64,000 bases of DNA from Candidatus Synechococcus calcipolaris G9. GTDB lineage: Bacteria; Cyanobacteriota; Cyanobacteriia; Thermosynechococcales; Thermosynechococcaceae. A model generated the notes under the pieces. It was not told the origin of the DNA and made no database searches. It saw only the letters and a program-made list of their open reading frames with translations. Made by a program: the position numbers and the translations under genes. The first letter of the stretch is position 1. The number at the start of each line of letters is the position of its first letter. The stretch is taken from contig NZ_JAKKUT010000002.1 of assembly GCF_029582805.1 (NCBI RefSeq), positions 1 to 64,000 of the forward strand. The letters are read 5' to 3'. Below, piece by piece: positions 19,073-52,412 of this stretch.

Positions 19073-21154
19073 CTACTTATATTGTGCTAGGAAATCAAAA
19101 TCACAAAGCTCGTCCAAAGCTTTTTTCTGATTTTCAATTAGCTTACTCAATTCTGAAGCATCAATTCTAATTCTCAGATTGCCGTATTTATCATAAGGAT
19201 GAGCTTCTGTTTTTTGATTTCTAGATTCATTTATTCTAAGAAAGCATCTGTTAGCGATTGGAAAATAATCCTTAATACAACCAGAGTTAAGATTAACCCC
19301 GTATTCTTTATTTGCCTGTTGAATGTTCATAAACTTACAAATTTGATCATAAACGAGGTTATTGAAAGAATTAAGATTCAAGAGTGATTTTGAAGGATCG
19401 GTGACTCTATGTTCGAAAAACAATCGGAAAGAGATAGATAATTCTTTATATAAGCTTTTATCATGCCATACAGTCTCATTGAAAAACAATTCAGGCTTTG
19501 ATATAGAAAATTCATTCTTTAAAGTATGAATTATGTAATCTATCTTATTTCCAGAAATAAGATTTTGAATATATTCATTGTATTCCGAGAAATCAAGATC
19601 GCTTGGAGCAGGTAGAAGTAGAGACAAATATAGAGCGTGAAGCGAAATTAAACAGTCTTTACTTTTTAATCTACTTTTAATAAAATCATCCAAATAGATA
19701 GGATCCTGAATTATTTTAAATTTAAAGTTAACAACTTCTCTATTCAGAAAGTAATTATCTGAATGAAAGGAGTTGATTAACTCGATTTTATTATTCTTAT
19801 AGAGCCACTCAAACATGAAGTACTTAACTATCCAATGCCTATCTTCATCTCGCATATATTTTCTATAAATATCTTCCATAAATTCAAGAGTTGGAAAAAA
19901 TTTAAACACTAAAGCTATGAGATAATGAAATAATATTTTTTCGTCTCGTAAGATATTAATTAGCCAGTCCTTAACCTCGTTATCGTCAGAAAAATGATTC
20001 TTTAGATAAAAGAGAACGGCTTCAAAATGAATGTATAGGTTTTCCAGATTTTTTAATAAGATTGACTTTACATCTTCATCTTTATTTAGTTTATACAAAG
20101 AAAAGCTAATTATAGTTTTATCCAAGTATCCTTCAATATTATCTTGGTTAAAACAATTCAAAAACCTTTCTTTTAATTTTTTATGAGTTTTAGCTTTGAG
20201 ACTGCCTTTCTTTTTGTATTCTTTAGTAATCGCTGAAAATTTATTTCTTTGATGCTTTAAAGTTTTATCTATATCATCTATTTTACTTACTAAGATTTTA
20301 CTGGCTTGAGGAATTAAACCTAAATCTCTCGCTACTAAATCTAAATATGCTATCGCTCTCTGTGCTGTGATCTTATCTTTTGAAAAAATTCTTATGTCAT
20401 CTACATATCGAATATATTTAATGTTAAGCTTGCTACTTTTAATTTCTAAATCGAGATGAAAAAGATATAAATCTGCTAAAAAAGGAGAACCGATAGGTCC
20501 TTGGGGTATGCCATGTTTACTTTTGAAGGTTTTATGGCTGAAATCGCTTGTAAATGCTTCTAATAATTTAAGTAACAAGCTTGAAAGACGATTGTCAATA
20601 TAATTCTTCTCTAAAATTTGCTGAAGGGTATAGTGATCAATTGTGTCAAAGAATGAAGCTATATCAAATTCAGCTAAAAAAATATAGCCCTCTTCATAGT
20701 GTTTTCGAGTTCTTTGCTCAAATTTATTCCATTGCTCTTTCCATGGTTTGAAGAAAAAAATCTTATTTATTTTGTTCTCTGTCGAAGTATTATAAACGTT
20801 TCCAAAAATTGTATTGTTATAGTATGGAGAAATATCATTATATACTACATCTGCAATTACGTTGATAATTGCTTGATAGATTAATAAATCTCTAAATTTC
20901 AATAGAGATAATGGTCTTACAAGGTTGTTTTTTTTTGGTATAAATATCTTGTATGAGCTGGTTGGACTGAATATGCAATGTTTTATTTCATCTAAAAGAC
21001 TTTTTATATTTTCCTCCAAAAATAACCCGAATATCTTGAGATCTTCGTAGTATAAATCTTTGTAAACGTTTCTAGGCGCGGTCTGTAACCTTTGAAAGGC
21101 TAAGATAAAATTTTCTTTTGACAAGAAACTTTCAAACTGACTTTCTTTAAGCAT
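19073..21154 (-). CDS. Abi-like reverse transcriptase with C-terminal HEPN-like motif
   Basis: A 693-residue protein. The reverse transcriptase core covers about residues 60-300: motif A AEFDIASFFD with Asp164, the GIPQGPIGSPFLADLY block, and the catalytic YVDD at 250-253. There is no maturase X, DNA-binding or HNH domain, so it is not a group II intron protein. Residues about 330-600 look entirely helical, as in AbiA/AbiK-type enzymes. Near the C-terminus RNQKTEAH (Arg645-x6-His652) fits the catalytic motif of HEPN ribonucleases. RT plus HEPN is the architecture of abortive-infection protein AbiA. The gene is much more AT-rich than its neighbours, a sign of transfer. Antiphage function is inferred. 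Confidence 0.82.
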   Translation of the reverse strand: MLKESQFESFLSKENFILAFQRLQTAPRNVYKDLYYEDLKIFGLFLEENIKSLLDEIKHCIFSPTSSYKIFIPKKNNLVRPLSLLKFRDLLIYQAIINVIADVVYNDISPYYNNTIFGNVYNTSTENKINKIFFFKPWKEQWNKFEQRTRKHYEEGYIFLAEFDIASFFDTIDHYTLQQILEKNYIDNRLSSLLLKLLEAFTSDFSHKTFKSKHGIPQGPIGSPFLADLYLFHLDLEIKSSKLNIKYIRYVDDIRIFSKDKITAQRAIAYLDLVARDLGLIPQASKILVSKIDDIDKTLKHQRNKFSAITKEYKKKGSLKAKTHKKLKERFLNCFNQDNIEGYLDKTIISFSLYKLNKDEDVKSILLKNLENLYIHFEAVLFYLKNHFSDDNEVKDWLINILRDEKILFHYLIALVFKFFPTLEFMEDIYRKYMRDEDRHWIVKYFMFEWLYKNNKIELINSFHSDNYFLNREVVNFKFKIIQDPIYLDDFIKSRLKSKDCLISLHALYLSLLLPAPSDLDFSEYNEYIQNLISGNKIDYIIHTLKNEFSISKPELFFNETVWHDKSLYKELSISFRLFFEHRVTDPSKSLLNLNSFNNLVYDQICKFMNIQQANKEYGVNLNSGCIKDYFPIANRCFLRINESRNQKTEAHPYDKYGNLRIRIDASELSKLIENQKKALDELCDFDFLAQYK

Positions 21155-21249
21155 AAAGTTTACTCAATAAATTAAAATTTTACCTGAAAAGTGAAATTTT
21201 TTGGTTGTTTCTGCTGTTGAATATCTTTAATCAAAATTAAGGTTAAACA

Positions 21250-45738: not shown

Positions 45739-46701
45739 GTTCGGGATAAGAGAGGGGCAGAACAGATAGGCTGAAAGTGCTCAATTCTCATCCCTCTGCT
45801 TGCCCTATGCTTAGTCTAGAAGAGTTATTTTGCTACGTCGATGATTTCTGCCAACAGTTTGAACCGATGTGGCAGCAACAGTTGCTAGGCAATGGACTCG
45901 CTCATCGTAGTCGAAGGCGCAGTTTGTGTCTGAGCGAAATTATGACGATTCTCATCGGCTTCCACCAGTCTTCCTATCGCAATTTCAAAGCTTACTACAC
46001 CGAGAAGGTACACGCTCACTGGTGCTCTGCCTTTCCAGGCTTGGTTAGCTACGGGCGTTTTGTTGAGTGGATACCCAGCACCCTGCTGCCCTTGTGTGCC
46101 TATCTCCGTTCTTGCTTCGGCCACTGTACAGGCATCAGTTTTCTTGATGCCACCAGTCTCAAAGTTTGTCACAACCGTCGCATCCCTCAGCACAAAGTGT
46201 TTAAAAACTTGGCGGCACGCGGTAAAACTTCTGTGGATTGGTTCTTTGGCTTCAAGCTGCATCTGGTGATCAACGACAAAGGAGAGTTGCTCAACTTCAC
46301 CTTCACACCAGGTAACACAGATGACCGTACACCTGTCCCTCAACTGCTGAAACACCTCTTTGGCAAGGTGTTTGCAGACAAGGGCTATATCTCCCAGAAA
46401 TTGGCAAAATAGTTGATGGAGGCAACAGGGATACAACTGATCACGAAGCTACGACGCAACATGAAGAATCGTTTGTTGGGATTGAGCGATCGCTTGATGC
46501 TGAGAAAACGGGCCATTATCGAGACAGTAATTGATCAGTTGAAGAACATTTCTCAAATTGAACACTCTCGTCACCGTTCCCCGATCAATTGCTTAGTGAA
46601 CATTGTCTGTGGGCTAATTGCCTATACTCACCAACCGAAGAAGCCCTCCATTGCCATTGATCACCATTTGCTCACAGTTGCTTAAACCGAACTCACGTTA
46701 A
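45730..46701 (+). mobile_element. IS982-family insertion sequence with 15-base terminal inverted repeats
   Basis: Perfect inverted repeats of TTAACGTGAGTTCGG mark the ends (45730-45744 and 46687-46701) around one transposase gene. The outermost bases could be target site, so the true ends may be a few bases inward. The left end supplies the stop codon of the NUDIX gene and the right end abuts a tRNA-Pro fragment. Confidence 0.85.
45807..46685 (+). pseudogene. IS982 transposase with in-frame stop
   Basis: The frame reads [53 protein letters not shown] and FADKGYIS, then TAG at 46410-46412, and continues in the same frame with [19 protein letters not shown] and [25 protein letters not shown]. 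This is an IS982 transposase of normal total length (about 292 codons) with one nonsense codon, most simply CAG to TAG. The last catalytic Glu (ETVIDQLK) lies beyond the stop, so the element should be dead unless the stop is read through. Confidence 0.9.
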
Positions 46702-47734: not shown

Positions 47735-49924
47735 ATGAATCAGGGTAGAGCCGCTCAGGTTGCCAGCATCATTGAGAAAAGAAAACCTTTGGCGGCTGAG
47801 GTGGATAAAGTCATGGGTAATCTCCAGTCCCTGACTTCAGCCTTGAGGCAATTAGAGCAGCACCGAATACAACTATTTTCAGAATCCGATGATCTAGAAA
47901 CCACGGGGCGACTTCAGGAGATCAACCTAACTGCACTTCAAAATGAGATCAGTTCTGAGTTTGCTGTTTTAGGGAAGCTGAAAATTCGCTTTTCTCGGAA
48001 TACGCTTAACATCGGTGTTATTGGCCGGGCGAGGCAGGGTAAAAGCCGACTCCTACAGACACTCTCTGGTTTATCCAGTGCGGAAATTCCATCGGGAGAT
48101 CGCTCTCACTGCACCGGAGTTCGCAGCACCATTCATCACAACCCTGGGGTTAAAACCTATGGGGAAGTCTGGTTCTATTCAGAGCGAGAGTTTCTGAGTG
48201 ATGTCATTGGCCCCTACTATGACAAACTCCAACTTGGGAGCCGCCCTTTTTCGCTGGATAGCTTTGCTCGTACCCCCTTACCCGGACTGCCCGAATCTTT
48301 GCAAGGCATTGCAGAGCTTGGAGCCATGTATGAGCATCTGCGTAAGTATCACAGCAATTTTGATCAATACAAGCATCTGCTCAACGTCATCTCGCCTCAG
48401 CAAATCTCGAAAGAGCAAATTCGAGAATATGTTGCTCAAGACAATGAAGCCGGGGAACGCATCTATTTCAACTATTTAGCGGTTAAGGAGGCCAAAGTCG
48501 TTTGTGGTTTCCCCAATGAGGATGTGGGACAGATAGCACTAATTGATATGCCAGGACTGGGGGATACAGGGTTAGGGGATGCCGAGCGGCTGATGACGAT
48601 TCTGGGGCAGGATGTGGATGTAGTTCTATTTATCCGAATGCCTAAGCCACCGGGGGACTTCTGGGCTGATGTGGATGTGAAGCTTTACGATACGGCCCGT
48701 GCTTCTTTGGTTGATCTACCCATTCATAACTGGGCGTTTATGGTGCTGAATCAAACAGCAGCAAATTCTCTGATTGGGGATAATGCCCGATATTGTGAAG
48801 ATTTGACGAATTCCTTGGCAACGAGCCATATTAATGTTGTTGAGTGCATTACTGCCAGTTGTGCTGATCCTCAACAAGCTAACCAAAAAGTGTTAGATAA
48901 AATCCTTAATTACTTGCTAGAAAATATTACATCTCTTGATAAACGCTATGCCAAAGCCTGCCAAGATAGACTCATTCGCATCCAAAGTGAAGTTCAGATT
49001 GAATTAGAGAAAGCTAAAAAAGCCATGGGGTTTGGCGGACAAAAAGATGGCTGGTTCCCACTATTCATTAAACTCTTTAACCAGCTCTGGGATGACCTAA
49101 CAGGGGGGTTACGAAAGCTGCTGGATAAATTAGAAGAAAGCAGAGACTGCTGTGATGAAGACTTACAAAAACAACTCAAAATAGTTTTAGCATCTGCCCG
49201 ACAAGATACCCGATTTCCTTCAGTTGAACAAATCGAGATTTGTCGAGATAGAGAAGGCGGTTATCCAAATGCTTACTATCGGTATCTTAATGAGGTTAGA
49301 GCTAACCTATCCAGACATTTTTTAAGTTTAGATGATGGACTTAAACGTTCTCTGTATAATATTAAGTCTGAGGTTGCTGAAGTCTTAATTCAAGATGGGC
49401 GAATGGGAAAAATTACTGACGCTAGGGGGACTGAATTTCTCAAAATTATCGAGGCATTAATTCCCGACGAACTTGGTCAACTCAAATTAGGGTTTAACAT
49501 ACTAGCTTCGTTTGAGTTATCCTATCGAGGATTAATTCAACACCGTATTCGTAAAAATCTTGATAGACTTACCCCCGATAAAGCTCCGGTTCAGCTTTCA
49601 GAAACACCATCAGCTAGTGAGATTCATGAGATTTTATCTATCCTATACGAGGAAACCTTGTATGATTCCGAAGAAAGCGTAGAAAAGATTCTTGCCGAAC
49701 CCAGTCAAGCTGCCTATGCCATTGTCGAAGAATTCTTAGATCGAGTCTTAAGGTCTGAAGGGGTTAAAGATGAGTGGCAAATATTTCTAGAGGAAAATCG
49801 CTCAGACATCTGGACATCCGAATTTGAGAAGCTAGGCCAAAATTCTCGACTGAAAAGAGAGTGGTTGAAATCTATAGATGAATCTCTCAGTCGTAATAGA
49901 TTAGATCTAATGCAATTCACATAA
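47735..49924 (+). CDS. Dynamin-like large GTPase of a putative conflict system
   Basis: A 729-residue protein. Residues 1-88 look like coiled coil. The GTPase domain follows with G1 GRARQGKS (97-104), a switch-like SHCTGVRST (124-132) and G3 DMPGLGD (271-277). The G4 element is unusual (VLNQ where T/NKxD is expected). The second half is helical, as in dynamin stalks, with QDKLQ- and KLLDKLEESRD-like heptads. Membrane remodelling or scaffold assembly on GTP hydrolysis is the usual role of such proteins, inferred here. First gene of an operon: 9 bases to the second GTPase. Codon use is more AT-rich than in flanking genes. Confidence 0.75.
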   Translation: MNQGRAAQVASIIEKRKPLAAEVDKVMGNLQSLTSALRQLEQHRIQLFSESDDLETTGRLQEINLTALQNEISSEFAVLGKLKIRFSRNTLNIGVIGRARQGKSRLLQTLSGLSSAEIPSGDRSHCTGVRSTIHHNPGVKTYGEVWFYSEREFLSDVIGPYYDKLQLGSRPFSLDSFARTPLPGLPESLQGIAELGAMYEHLRKYHSNFDQYKHLLNVISPQQISKEQIREYVAQDNEAGERIYFNYLAVKEAKVVCGFPNEDVGQIALIDMPGLGDTGLGDAERLMTILGQDVDVVLFIRMPKPPGDFWADVDVKLYDTARASLVDLPIHNWAFMVLNQTAANSLIGDNARYCEDLTNSLATSHINVVECITASCADPQQANQKVLDKILNYLLENITSLDKRYAKACQDRLIRIQSEVQIELEKAKKAMGFGGQKDGWFPLFIKLFNQLWDDLTGGLRKLLDKLEESRDCCDEDLQKQLKIVLASARQDTRFPSVEQIEICRDREGGYPNAYYRYLNEVRANLSRHFLSLDDGLKRSLYNIKSEVAEVLIQDGRMGKITDARGTEFLKIIEALIPDELGQLKLGFNILASFELSYRGLIQHRIRKNLDRLTPDKAPVQLSETPSASEIHEILSILYEETLYDSEESVEKILAEPSQAAYAIVEEFLDRVLRSEGVKDEWQIFLEENRSDIWTSEFEKLGQNSRLKREWLKSIDESLSRNRLDLMQFT

Positions 49925-49933
49925 AGGATAAAT

Positions 49934-50977
49934 ATGCACGAACTGAAAATTACAATGTTAGGAGCAAGTGGAGTAGGTAAAACGACTCTACTAACATCGA
50001 TGTATGAACAATTTATTAATTCAGTAATAAATCAAGGTATTGAATTAGACCTTCAGCCTGACATCTTAACCTCAAGAATATTGCAAGATAAATTGATCGA
50101 GTTAAAAAACCTTACCTCACAGTTTTCAGTTAAGGGTGGAATTCAAGGAACAGAAGATGACAAGATTTATAAATTCAGAGTTGGAAGAAAGGGAGAGAAA
50201 CCATCTCTCGAATTGAAATTTTGTGACTATCCAGGAAGGTATCATACGTCAGAGAACTTTGATCATCATCAATTTATTCTTAAGCAGTTAGTAGATTGTG
50301 TTGCGGTTTTGTTGGCAATCGATTCGCCTGCCTTAATGGAAAGAGATGGTCACTGGCACGATCAATTTAATCGTCCCCAACAAATTAGAGATTTGTTTGC
50401 TGAAGCTTATGCAGGGTTAGATTCTCCTCGGCTAATTATCATGGCTCCTGTTCGTTGTGAAAAGTATATGCAAACTGAAAGATCGGCTAGAGATTTCGTA
50501 TATAGAATCAAAGAGAAGTACTCACCATTACTTAATCTTTTTTCATCAAATTCTATTGATTCAAATTTAGCTGTTGTCATTTTGCCGGTTCAAACTGTTG
50601 GTGGTGTTATTTTCTCTCGTATTGAGATGTATGATGAGTTCCCAGTTTTTAAATTTAGAAAAGCATCTCCTAGTTCTGAATATGCTCCTAAAGACAGCGA
50701 TCAGCCTTTACGCTACTTAATGCGTTTCTTGTTAATGCTTCATCTCTCTCAAAGAAAGTGGAAGATACCTAATGAAGGAATCAGCGATAACATCAATGAC
50801 TATATTCGTACTTTGTTTAATATTGATTTTAATATAAATCAAATTATTGATGGAATTCGGCAAGTTTTCAAAAGTGATTCACACTTAACTTCTGCAATCG
50901 ATCACTATTCTCAGGGCTGTAAAAGTTCTGGTGCATTTGAAATTATTCAAGGACATCACTTATTAGATCGTTATTAG
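49934..50977 (+). CDS. Second small GTPase of the same system (TRAFAC type)
   Basis: A 347-residue P-loop protein. G1 is GASGVGKTT (10-18) directly at the N-terminus, G3 is the FCDYPGRY segment near residue 97, and hydrophobic strands such as CVAVLLAIDSPAL and PRLIIMAPVRC fit the central sheet. No NKxD motif is evident. It resembles the smaller partner of paired-GTPase conflict modules. The AAGGA ribosome site and 9-base spacing show that it is co-translated with the dynamin-like gene; the third gene's ATG begins 14 bases after its stop. Confidence 0.75.
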   Translation: MHELKITMLGASGVGKTTLLTSMYEQFINSVINQGIELDLQPDILTSRILQDKLIELKNLTSQFSVKGGIQGTEDDKIYKFRVGRKGEKPSLELKFCDYPGRYHTSENFDHHQFILKQLVDCVAVLLAIDSPALMERDGHWHDQFNRPQQIRDLFAEAYAGLDSPRLIIMAPVRCEKYMQTERSARDFVYRIKEKYSPLLNLFSSNSIDSNLAVVILPVQTVGGVIFSRIEMYDEFPVFKFRKASPSSEYAPKDSDQPLRYLMRFLLMLHLSQRKWKIPNEGISDNINDYIRTLFNIDFNINQIIDGIRQVFKSDSHLTSAIDHYSQGCKSSGAFEIIQGHHLLDRY

Positions 50978-50991
50978 TATTGGAGTCATTT

Positions 50992-51921
50992 ATGCAAGTT
51001 TACGTAAAAAGCAGAGGCTTTACACCTGAATCTGATTACTCATGGCTGCCATCTGATCCTCCAGATGTTGCAAATTATAAGTCTTATATCGATAGTGAAT
51101 ACCCATCATTGATCTTATATTCCTTTGATAATCGTCTAGCCTTATTAGTCACAGGTAGTGAGTCAGATCGAGAAGATTTTCGTGGTCGTAAGATCAGAAA
51201 TTCAGTTTTATGGATTTCAGAGAGTAATGGTCATGAAGATGAAAAAATGTTGAGGGCTATTGCTTGTGAATTTCTCGATAATTATTTGGCCGGTAAATTA
51301 AATCAGATAATTTGCAAAGATGAGAAAGTTTCTAATCCTGGCTTTACTTTTGACCAAGAACGTTTGCTCAATATTGTTAGCATGGATAGATTAGATTCAA
51401 TCCAATCTAATCCCTTAAGTAAGGATGAACTAAAGGCTAAGTATGCAACTAACACTCCAAGGTTAAAGAGTGATCTTTCCAACCTAGTACGAGAGTATGA
51501 ATTGCCCAAAAATGGCATTTTAAAATTTCTAGTGGTGACGGGAAAAGTTGAGGAGAGTAAGATAAAGGATCCATCTGTATGGAGAAGTTTATCTACCGAA
51601 ATTTCTGATTCTAGATGGCAACTCAAAAAAAAAAACAGGGATCCCAGCCTCAGTGCTTCTTATCACCTCAGTTGCTCTAATCCTTCTACTACTGATAATA
51701 ATGTGGAAGAAATGATACCTAATCCTATTGATTTTGTGTTATCTAAAACGGATATTGATATAGCTCGCTTTGTCTTTGAGTGCCAAAATCTACATGATAA
51801 AGTCAATTCAGGAAATAGGTTATCTGATTACGATAAGATAATAATTAAAGCTGCCGAGAAGAAATTAAATCATTTCCTTAATGAAATTAATGATATAAAG
51901 CGGCGTGATTCAGAGAACTAA
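50992..51921 (+). CDS. Third protein of the GTPase operon; frame depends on an A11 run
   Basis: The straight reading gives 309 residues from ATG 50992 (GGAG ribosome site; a TTG at 50980 is rejected). The first 211 residues look genuine (QVYVKSRGFTPESDYSWLPS, SDREDFRGRKIRNSVLW) but match no family I know. After the adenine run at 51625-51635 this frame turns into Ser/Asn-rich sequence that looks out of frame. One base less in the run gives instead a hydrophobic helix (SVLLITSVALILLLLIIM) and a stop at 51713-51715, that is, a 240-residue tail-anchored membrane protein. The residues from 51712 on are then a separate small gene. I think the short membrane form is the main product. Confidence 0.6.
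   Translation: MQVYVKSRGFTPESDYSWLPSDPPDVANYKSYIDSEYPSLILYSFDNRLALLVTGSESDREDFRGRKIRNSVLWISESNGHEDEKMLRAIACEFLDNYLAGKLNQIICKDEKVSNPGFTFDQERLLNIVSMDRLDSIQSNPLSKDELKAKYATNTPRLKSDLSNLVREYELPKNGILKFLVVTGKVEESKIKDPSVWRSLSTEISDSRWQLKKKNRDPSLSASYHLSCSNPSTTDNNVEEMIPNPIDFVLSKTDIDIARFVFECQNLHDKVNSGNRLSDYDKIIIKAAEKKLNHFLNEINDIKRRDSEN
51625..51635 (+). repeat. Eleven-adenine run, candidate slippage site
   Basis: A homopolymer of 11 A's inside the third gene of the GTPase operon. It is long enough for polymerase slippage in transcription or replication, and equally a classic place for a sequencing or assembly indel. Frame change by minus one base yields the membrane-anchored product. Confidence 0.85.
51712..51921 (+). 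CDS. Possible fourth gene of the GTPase operon (69 residues)
   Basis: If the third gene ends with its membrane helix at TGA 51713-51715, an ATG at 51712 overlaps that stop as ATGA, the usual sign of translational coupling. The 69-residue product is helical and charged (DIDIARFVFECQNLHDKV, KAAEKKLNHFLNEINDI). No known domain. Alternatively it is simply the C-terminus of a fused third protein when the A-run is read straight. Confidence 0.45.
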   Translation: MIPNPIDFVLSKTDIDIARFVFECQNLHDKVNSGNRLSDYDKIIIKAAEKKLNHFLNEINDIKRRDSEN

Positions 51922-52199
51922 AAAAATGACGATTATTTCCAAATAGAATGGATAGGTATGAATCGACAATGAAACCCTAAAAGCCTTGCAGGGTATAGGT
52001 TTTGACGCTTACATGAATAAAGAGCCAGATTTGCATAGCCTCTAGGTGGGTGCTGGAATGATTGGGAAAATATTCCATCATGGAAAAAACAACGCTCAAA
52101 AGACACCCTTACAACCAAATCCCCTTCTGAATGGCTGGAACCCTTTGAGGGAGGGGCTTTTACCCTTACAACTAACTAGGGCATGGGGCGTGGGGTATG
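51922..52199. other. Non-coding stretch between the GTPase operon and an IS remnant
   Basis: No intact gene. The phrase ACCCTTACAAC occurs twice as a direct repeat (near 52103 and 52164) around a GC-richer segment. It may be debris of the IS630-type element that follows. Confidence 0.35.
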
Positions 52200-52412
52200 T
52201 CGATGGCAATGGAGAGCGTTCAGCGATCACAGCGGACTCAAGAGTTAATTGAACAGGCTGGATGCACCCTGTTATTTTTGCCGCCTTACTCCCCTGACTT
52301 AAATATGATAGAGAAATTTTGGGCACAGTTAAAGCAGTGTTTGGGTCAGAACCTGAATCGGTTTGATCTCTTGTGGGATGCCGTGGATGAAGCTTTCAGG
52401 TATATGTCCTAA
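52200..52412 (+). pseudogene. IS630-family transposase C-terminal remnant
   Basis: The stretch from about 52217 reads RSQRTQELIEQAGCTLLFLP, then PYSPDLNMIEKFWAQLKQCL, which is the C-terminal DDE block (with the catalytic Glu) of an IS630 transposase. The expected upstream DNASxHRS sequence can be found only by shifting frame one base, and the N-terminal two thirds are missing. Dead fragment. Confidence 0.8.

Follow-up and report, generated by a model that had tools for sequence, protein, structure and literature searches.

One gene, two predicted C-terminal ends: a slippery A-run between a membrane tail and a soluble domain in a cyanobacterial GTPase operon

Outside mobile elements, conserved recoding of chromosomal genes is rare in bacteria. 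Among the described cases is dnaX, a single gene with two C-terminal outcomes (tau and gamma), which are reached by ribosomal frameshifting (PRF) in E. coli and by slippage in Thermus. The T. thermophilus gene uses transcriptional slippage at an A9 run; across lineages, some dnaX genes carry an A_AAA_AAG heptamer with a Shine-Dalgarno-like sequence and a stem-loop, and others a bare A9 or A10 run (PMC3711429). In tssM1 of Citrobacter rodentium, experiments on an A11 run have revealed transcripts with 10 to 15 A's and approximately 20-25% frameshifting (PMC4256274). Polymerase slippage that adds A's also decides between the soluble and transmembrane forms of the Ebola virus glycoprotein (PMC5009743).

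The third gene of a GTPase operon (gene 3), located in a 64-kb window (the whole stretch of DNA analysed) that its relatives in cyanobacterial genomes mark as cyanobacterial, can be compared with each of these systems. Like dnaX, it would be one gene with two C-terminal outcomes. However, a dnaX shift truncates the product, whereas a shift in gene 3 would put a conserved domain of another kind in place of a transmembrane (TM) anchor; the two genes are unrelated. With tssM1 it shares an A11 run and, by prediction, two length variants. Just one further tssM gene is reported to have such slippage, whereas the gene 3 site, known from sequence, recurs across many cyanobacterial families. Ebola glycoprotein editing would work in the same way, but involves a viral surface protein and a viral polymerase and is unrelated. 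The comparison of homologues described here makes it highly probable that gene 3 is dual-coding and that a programmed frameshift gives rise to its membrane-anchored and soluble isoforms.

Gene 3 (50992..51921, plus strand), whose whole zero frame is open for 309 codons, follows two GTPase genes on the same strand. Gene 1 (47735..49924, plus strand) encodes a large dynamin-like GTPase of 729 aa, its Pfam Dynamin_N match (E 7e-4) lying under the curated Pfam cut-off; at least 83 of the 106 gene-3 loci have a homologue of it upstream. Gene 2 (49934..50977, plus strand) encodes a Ras/Roc-like small GTPase of 347 aa (Pfam DO-GTPase2, E 5.7e-5; Roc, 0.006) and is present upstream of gene 3, in the same orientation, in 102 of the 106 gene-3 loci. 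This arrangement resembles the DO-GTPase/GAP1 GTPase-centric conflict systems, in which a TRAFAC-type GTPase gene is followed by a conserved partner gene, GAP1 is the defining partner, and many members have TM components (Kaur et al. 2020, PMC7159879). The operon differs from them in carrying a dynamin-like GTPase instead, in having no GAP1 Pfam match among the 84 gene-3 homologues scanned, and in a DO-GTPase2 score of 23.3 bits, which falls short of the Pfam cut-off of 27 and of what assignment to a conflict system calls for. PADLOC returned only weak P-loop-level matches for the operon proteins, and the label 'conflict system' has the sub-threshold DO-GTPase2 match as its sole basis. On either side of the operon are a transposase-like ORF pair, in two pieces and recognised by eye (window 45777-46685, upstream), and a DDE_3 transposase remnant (window 52197-52409, directly downstream); these flanking pieces suggest a mobile neighbourhood.

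Within gene 3, 11 A's (51625..51635, plus strand) separate the conserved N-terminal domain (50992..51624, plus strand), which would be common to both isoforms, from the C-terminal TM segment. The run is the longest homopolymer in the window. In the genomic (A11) register, the zero frame enters a 69-residue tail by way of a Ser/Asn-rich linker, the two together forming a predicted soluble end (51636..51921, plus strand) with a conserved helical domain. Past the run, the +1 frame gives KKKTGIPASVLLITSVALILLLLIIMWKK and corresponds to the membrane tail (51636..51715, plus strand), which has a single TM segment, would be read with one A fewer, and stops at a TGA (51713-51715). In the frame that an A10 would give, gene 3 reads LKKKTGIPASVLLITSVALILLLLIIMWKK, ending at the same stop. 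That stop overlaps, as ATGA, an in-frame ATG at 51712, which is the possible start of a separate 69-aa protein (51712..51921, plus strand). A first-pass annotation of this DNA had described the A11 run, the zero frame open to 51921, the hydrophobic neighbouring frame and the ATGA overlap, all of which were confirmed. It had also argued that a tail anchor and a coupled start are improbable together in an out-of-frame read, and this argument was dropped. TM codons with a central T become NNT codons in the shifted frame, encoding Ser, Asn, Asp or Tyr; since NNT codons cannot be stops, an open shifted frame across the TM segment is expected, and the Ser/Asn-rich linker is by itself no evidence. 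Similarly, an ATGA overlap always places the downstream ORF in that shifted frame. What chance leaves unexplained is the enrichment of the run, the conserved domain in the shifted frame, and the absence of start codons in most homologues.

Of 391 genomes from one cyanobacterial order, 100 carry homologues of gene 3; together with those from a few other genomes, they give a non-redundant set of 106 genes. No homologue was found on a plasmid, and neither gene 3 nor its tail is assigned to a family by Pfam, NCBIfam or PADLOC. A WRGLS motif closes the N-terminal domain, and in 93 of the 106 genes a TM segment comes next, nearly always in the genomic frame. Because a TM segment follows the N-terminal domain across homologues, the window's hydrophobic tail is the one normal for the family and, by this comparison, the ancestral one. 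In L048/L021 (G320), gene 3 is truncated directly after WRGLS and transposase-like ORFs come next; the truncation is probably due to an insertion element.

The alternative frame is conserved as well. About 20 homologues encode a domain homologous to the window tail in the frame that one added A (the +1A frame) or a -1 shift would give. Many A9 genes have a +1A frame that is open for 90-130 codons, and it extends at least 60 codons past the TM segment in 17 of 29 genes with A>=9, compared with 6 of 64 others (P 1e-6, calculated on related rows with kinship ignored). The +1A ends of A9 genes are homologous to one another and to the 69 codons of the window, where a profile of the alternative domain (g4b), in which the window row itself is included, matches positions 51754-51918 (E 3.3e-16). 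The domain (51745..51915, plus strand) is predicted to be a two-helix hairpin; AlphaFold places helices at residues 12-32 and 39-68 of the 69 (pLDDT 83.6). Beyond the TM-frame stop, where only one frame is coding, dN/dS is about 0.1-0.3 in pairs of relatives, and on this measure the alternative domain is under purifying selection. L118 was left out of these tests for its apparently extra frame breaks. A shifted-frame product that is both conserved and selected is one of the marks of genes with programmed transcriptional slippage (PTR), and the alternative domain shows it. The longish f2 frames of L056 and L100 were discounted, as they have neither a slippery site nor domain homology.

These 69 codons could instead be an ordinary separate gene, coupled through the ATGA, with its frame relation a by-product of the overlap and the A-run incidental. 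The ATG at 51712 would serve such a gene, L012 has an ATG too, and openness across the TM codons is forced by the code. However, most homologues have no usable start: upstream of the domain, its open frame contains no ATG, GTG or TTG in L116, L063, L086, L011, L034, L074, L057, L088 or L099. Long f2 frames are, moreover, associated with A9 or a heptamer, and A9 is in excess at the codon level (see below). An ordinary separate gene is thus very improbable. When the alternative domain alone was used as a query against the 391 genomes, 15 of 16 matches lay at the 3' end of a gene-3 homologue. Sequence comparison therefore indicates that the window's 69 codons are mainly the conserved alternative C-terminal domain of gene 3, and not a separate protein. 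Since a start codon is usually absent, the domain would be reached only by frameshifting and is invisible to normal annotation. Distant paralogues L148 and L151 have a TM segment and the alternative domain in the same frame relation, with no A9 and no clear heptamer; L149 is a relic of the alternative domain with no gene-3 homologue nearby.

Between WRGLS and the TM segment, the longest A-run is A9 in 26, A8 in 1, A10 in 2 and A11 in 1 of the 93 TM-bearing genes. Consequently, 29 of the 93 have A9 to A11, that is, a conserved A/T run (n>7) at the frame transition, as is typical of PTR. Runs of A>=9 number 31 in 27.6 kb of tails and 10 in 420 kb elsewhere in the same loci, approximately 47 times the background (P about 1e-40, with related rows treated as if kinship were absent). 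The conserved domain of about 600 nt never exceeds A8. Lysine is common beside TM segments, and codon choice was therefore tested, with expected A9 counts computed from the codon usage of each locus itself. Uninterrupted A9 was observed at 30 of the 35 tail sites whose amino acids permit it, against 11.9 expected; under the same model, background sites gave 8 of 30 against 9.5. With one site per family, the tail count was 15 of 20 against 5.9 (P 7e-6). The run occurs in different codon phases among homologues, which implies that what is kept is the nucleotide sequence and not one peptide. Judged from these counts, the A-run between WRGLS and the TM segment is selected.

The homologues are related and hence are not independent observations. 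Mapping the A9 label onto the tree takes 7 changes, only 2 of them forced by well-supported branches, and an independent-pairs test found few supported pairs. The frameshift device is lineage-specific, as both A9 and the alternative domain are missing from about 70 of the 106 homologues. Six A9 genes have no long +1A frame (L068, L093, L122, L130, L019 and L047). One of them, L122, has A9 twice, as separate runs, in the stretch from WRGLS to the TM segment (about 2600-2800). In genus g12 (L018, L019, L020, L045, L047), A9 or A10 precedes the TM segment, the +1A frame carries no alternative domain, and the -1A frame encodes a short, helical-looking tail of up to about 38 residues; in L018 (A10), this short tail is in the genomic frame and the TM segment is out of frame.

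The same TM tail and shifted-frame domain occur with no A9 in three homologues (L034, L057 and L074). In its place are slippery heptamers (A_AAA_AAG in L057, A_AAU_UUU/U_UUU_UUC in L074, A_AAU_UUU in L034), with a Shine-Dalgarno-like GAGG or AGGAGG about 10 nt upstream and a stem-loop 5-6 nt downstream (-28.1, -20.8 and -20.1 kcal/mol in L034, L057 and L074; z -4.8, -2.6 and -3.3). This cassette is built like the ribosomal frameshift signal of E. coli dnaX. None of the 15 stem pairs showed a compensatory change among the three sequences, and the support for the stem is energetic only. The first-pass annotation had named, as evidence against its proposal, homologues with no A-run in which the Ser/Asn-rich frame is conserved and the hydrophobic tail is missing; these three keep both tails. 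At the A-run sites, by comparison, no downstream structure was detected (mean fold z -0.28), and a Shine-Dalgarno-like sequence is found at 5 of 29, with no clear enrichment. The A11 site in the window, which has no such sequence and a fold z of +0.13, lacks the features of -1 PRF (dnaX type).

Without a Shine-Dalgarno sequence and stem-loop, the A-run sites are as expected for polymerase slippage. Nevertheless, a -1 ribosomal shift at A_AAA_AAA would reach the same frame, and relatives carry clear ribosomal cassettes. Polymerase slippage in cyanobacteria is also not certain, because oligo-A recoding found in chloroplasts fits a ribosomal origin rather than one in the polymerase (PMC8254509). 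Against a ribosomal shift, run lengths peak at 9 where a heptamer needs 7, and the sites have neither clear Shine-Dalgarno enrichment nor a stem-loop, which makes it unlikely as the explanation of the A-runs. We infer that slippage occurs in vivo, and that it is the polymerase rather than the ribosome that slips at these runs. In either case, it is very likely, from the comparative evidence, that the gene 3 family uses programmed frameshifting for both isoforms.

In the proposed mechanism, the shared N-terminal domain of gene 3 is followed by the slippery A-run. With no slippage (at A9 in most relatives, or A10 in the register of the window), translation would continue into the single TM end and yield a membrane-anchored protein. 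An mRNA with one extra A, produced when RNA polymerase slips, or a -1 shift by the ribosome would lead into the alternative frame, where the TM codons read out of frame give the Ser/Asn-rich linker, then the helical-hairpin domain and a soluble isoform. That slippage yields a membrane and a soluble form, as the first-pass annotation had suggested, is strongly supported by the homologues; its on/off anchor is better described as an exchange of the TM tail for a helical hairpin. Slippage would set the share of gene 3 protein at the membrane, possibly tuning how much regulator of the operon's two GTPases is membrane-bound relative to cytosolic.

The N-terminal domain has a confidently predicted structure (AlphaFold pLDDT 91.6). 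Its top structural matches are weak and mostly involve longin-domain proteins tied to Rag/Rab GTPases, the best being an Asgard longin domain (Z 5.3), followed by FLCN/NPRL2-type proteins (Z 4-5); the best Foldseek match is TagF, also weak (E 2.4e-3). Neither the N-terminal nor the alternative domain had a significant match in a PDB sequence search, and Foldseek found none among viral models. The likeness to longin/roadblock regulators of Ras-like GTPases (FLCN, NPRL2 and sedlin type) lies in these structural matches; with a best Z of only 5.3 and no sequence similarity, it is a lead and not membership. The longin-type matches agree with gene 3 being a partner of the operon's small GTPase. Recoding appears to decide the membrane location of a GTPase-operon protein, and one gene family appears to keep two isoforms via two recoding mechanisms, making it a comparative system for polymerase versus ribosome slippage.

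With A11 in the genome, the soluble isoform would be read directly, as the genomic default, and the TM isoform would come from transcripts with one A fewer. If the true length were A10, the TM form would be direct and the soluble form would need one extra A; both isoforms are predicted in either case. The genus is represented by one genome, and no sister genome with the same operon was available for comparison of run length. An assembly or sequencing error for A10, with a zero-frame TM form and a soluble form made by +1A slippage as in A9 relatives, is a real possibility, if a little short of an even chance. Of the 29 homologues with A>=9, 26 have their TM segment in the genomic frame, and slippage usually inserts, so that A10 would fit the family layout. 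On the other hand, the window's remaining homopolymers (two T9, two G8, C8) are all inside intact ORFs, L018 (A10) likewise has its TM segment outside the genomic frame, and an error would alter the default isoform only, leaving the mechanism unchanged.

Replicative phase variation, in which changes in run length between cells switch the default isoform, would agree with the occurrence of A9, A10 and A11 among genomes and with TM segments that are out of frame in the window, L018 and L118. It is quite unlikely, given that 26 of 29 genes, nearly all A9, have the TM segment in frame. A two-level switch can be proposed more tentatively than dual coding itself: genomic A9, A10 or A11 would set the default isoform of a strain, RNA slippage would set the isoform ratio, and lineages would have interchanged polymerase and ribosomal recoding. 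This broader scheme is possible but rather doubtful. Elsewhere in the window, a 35% GC stretch holds a gene for a 696-aa reverse transcriptase (19076-21163, minus strand; PADLOC RT_UG19, DRT class, E 3e-178), which itself contains an A9 run (T9 at 20928) through which its reading frame stays open.
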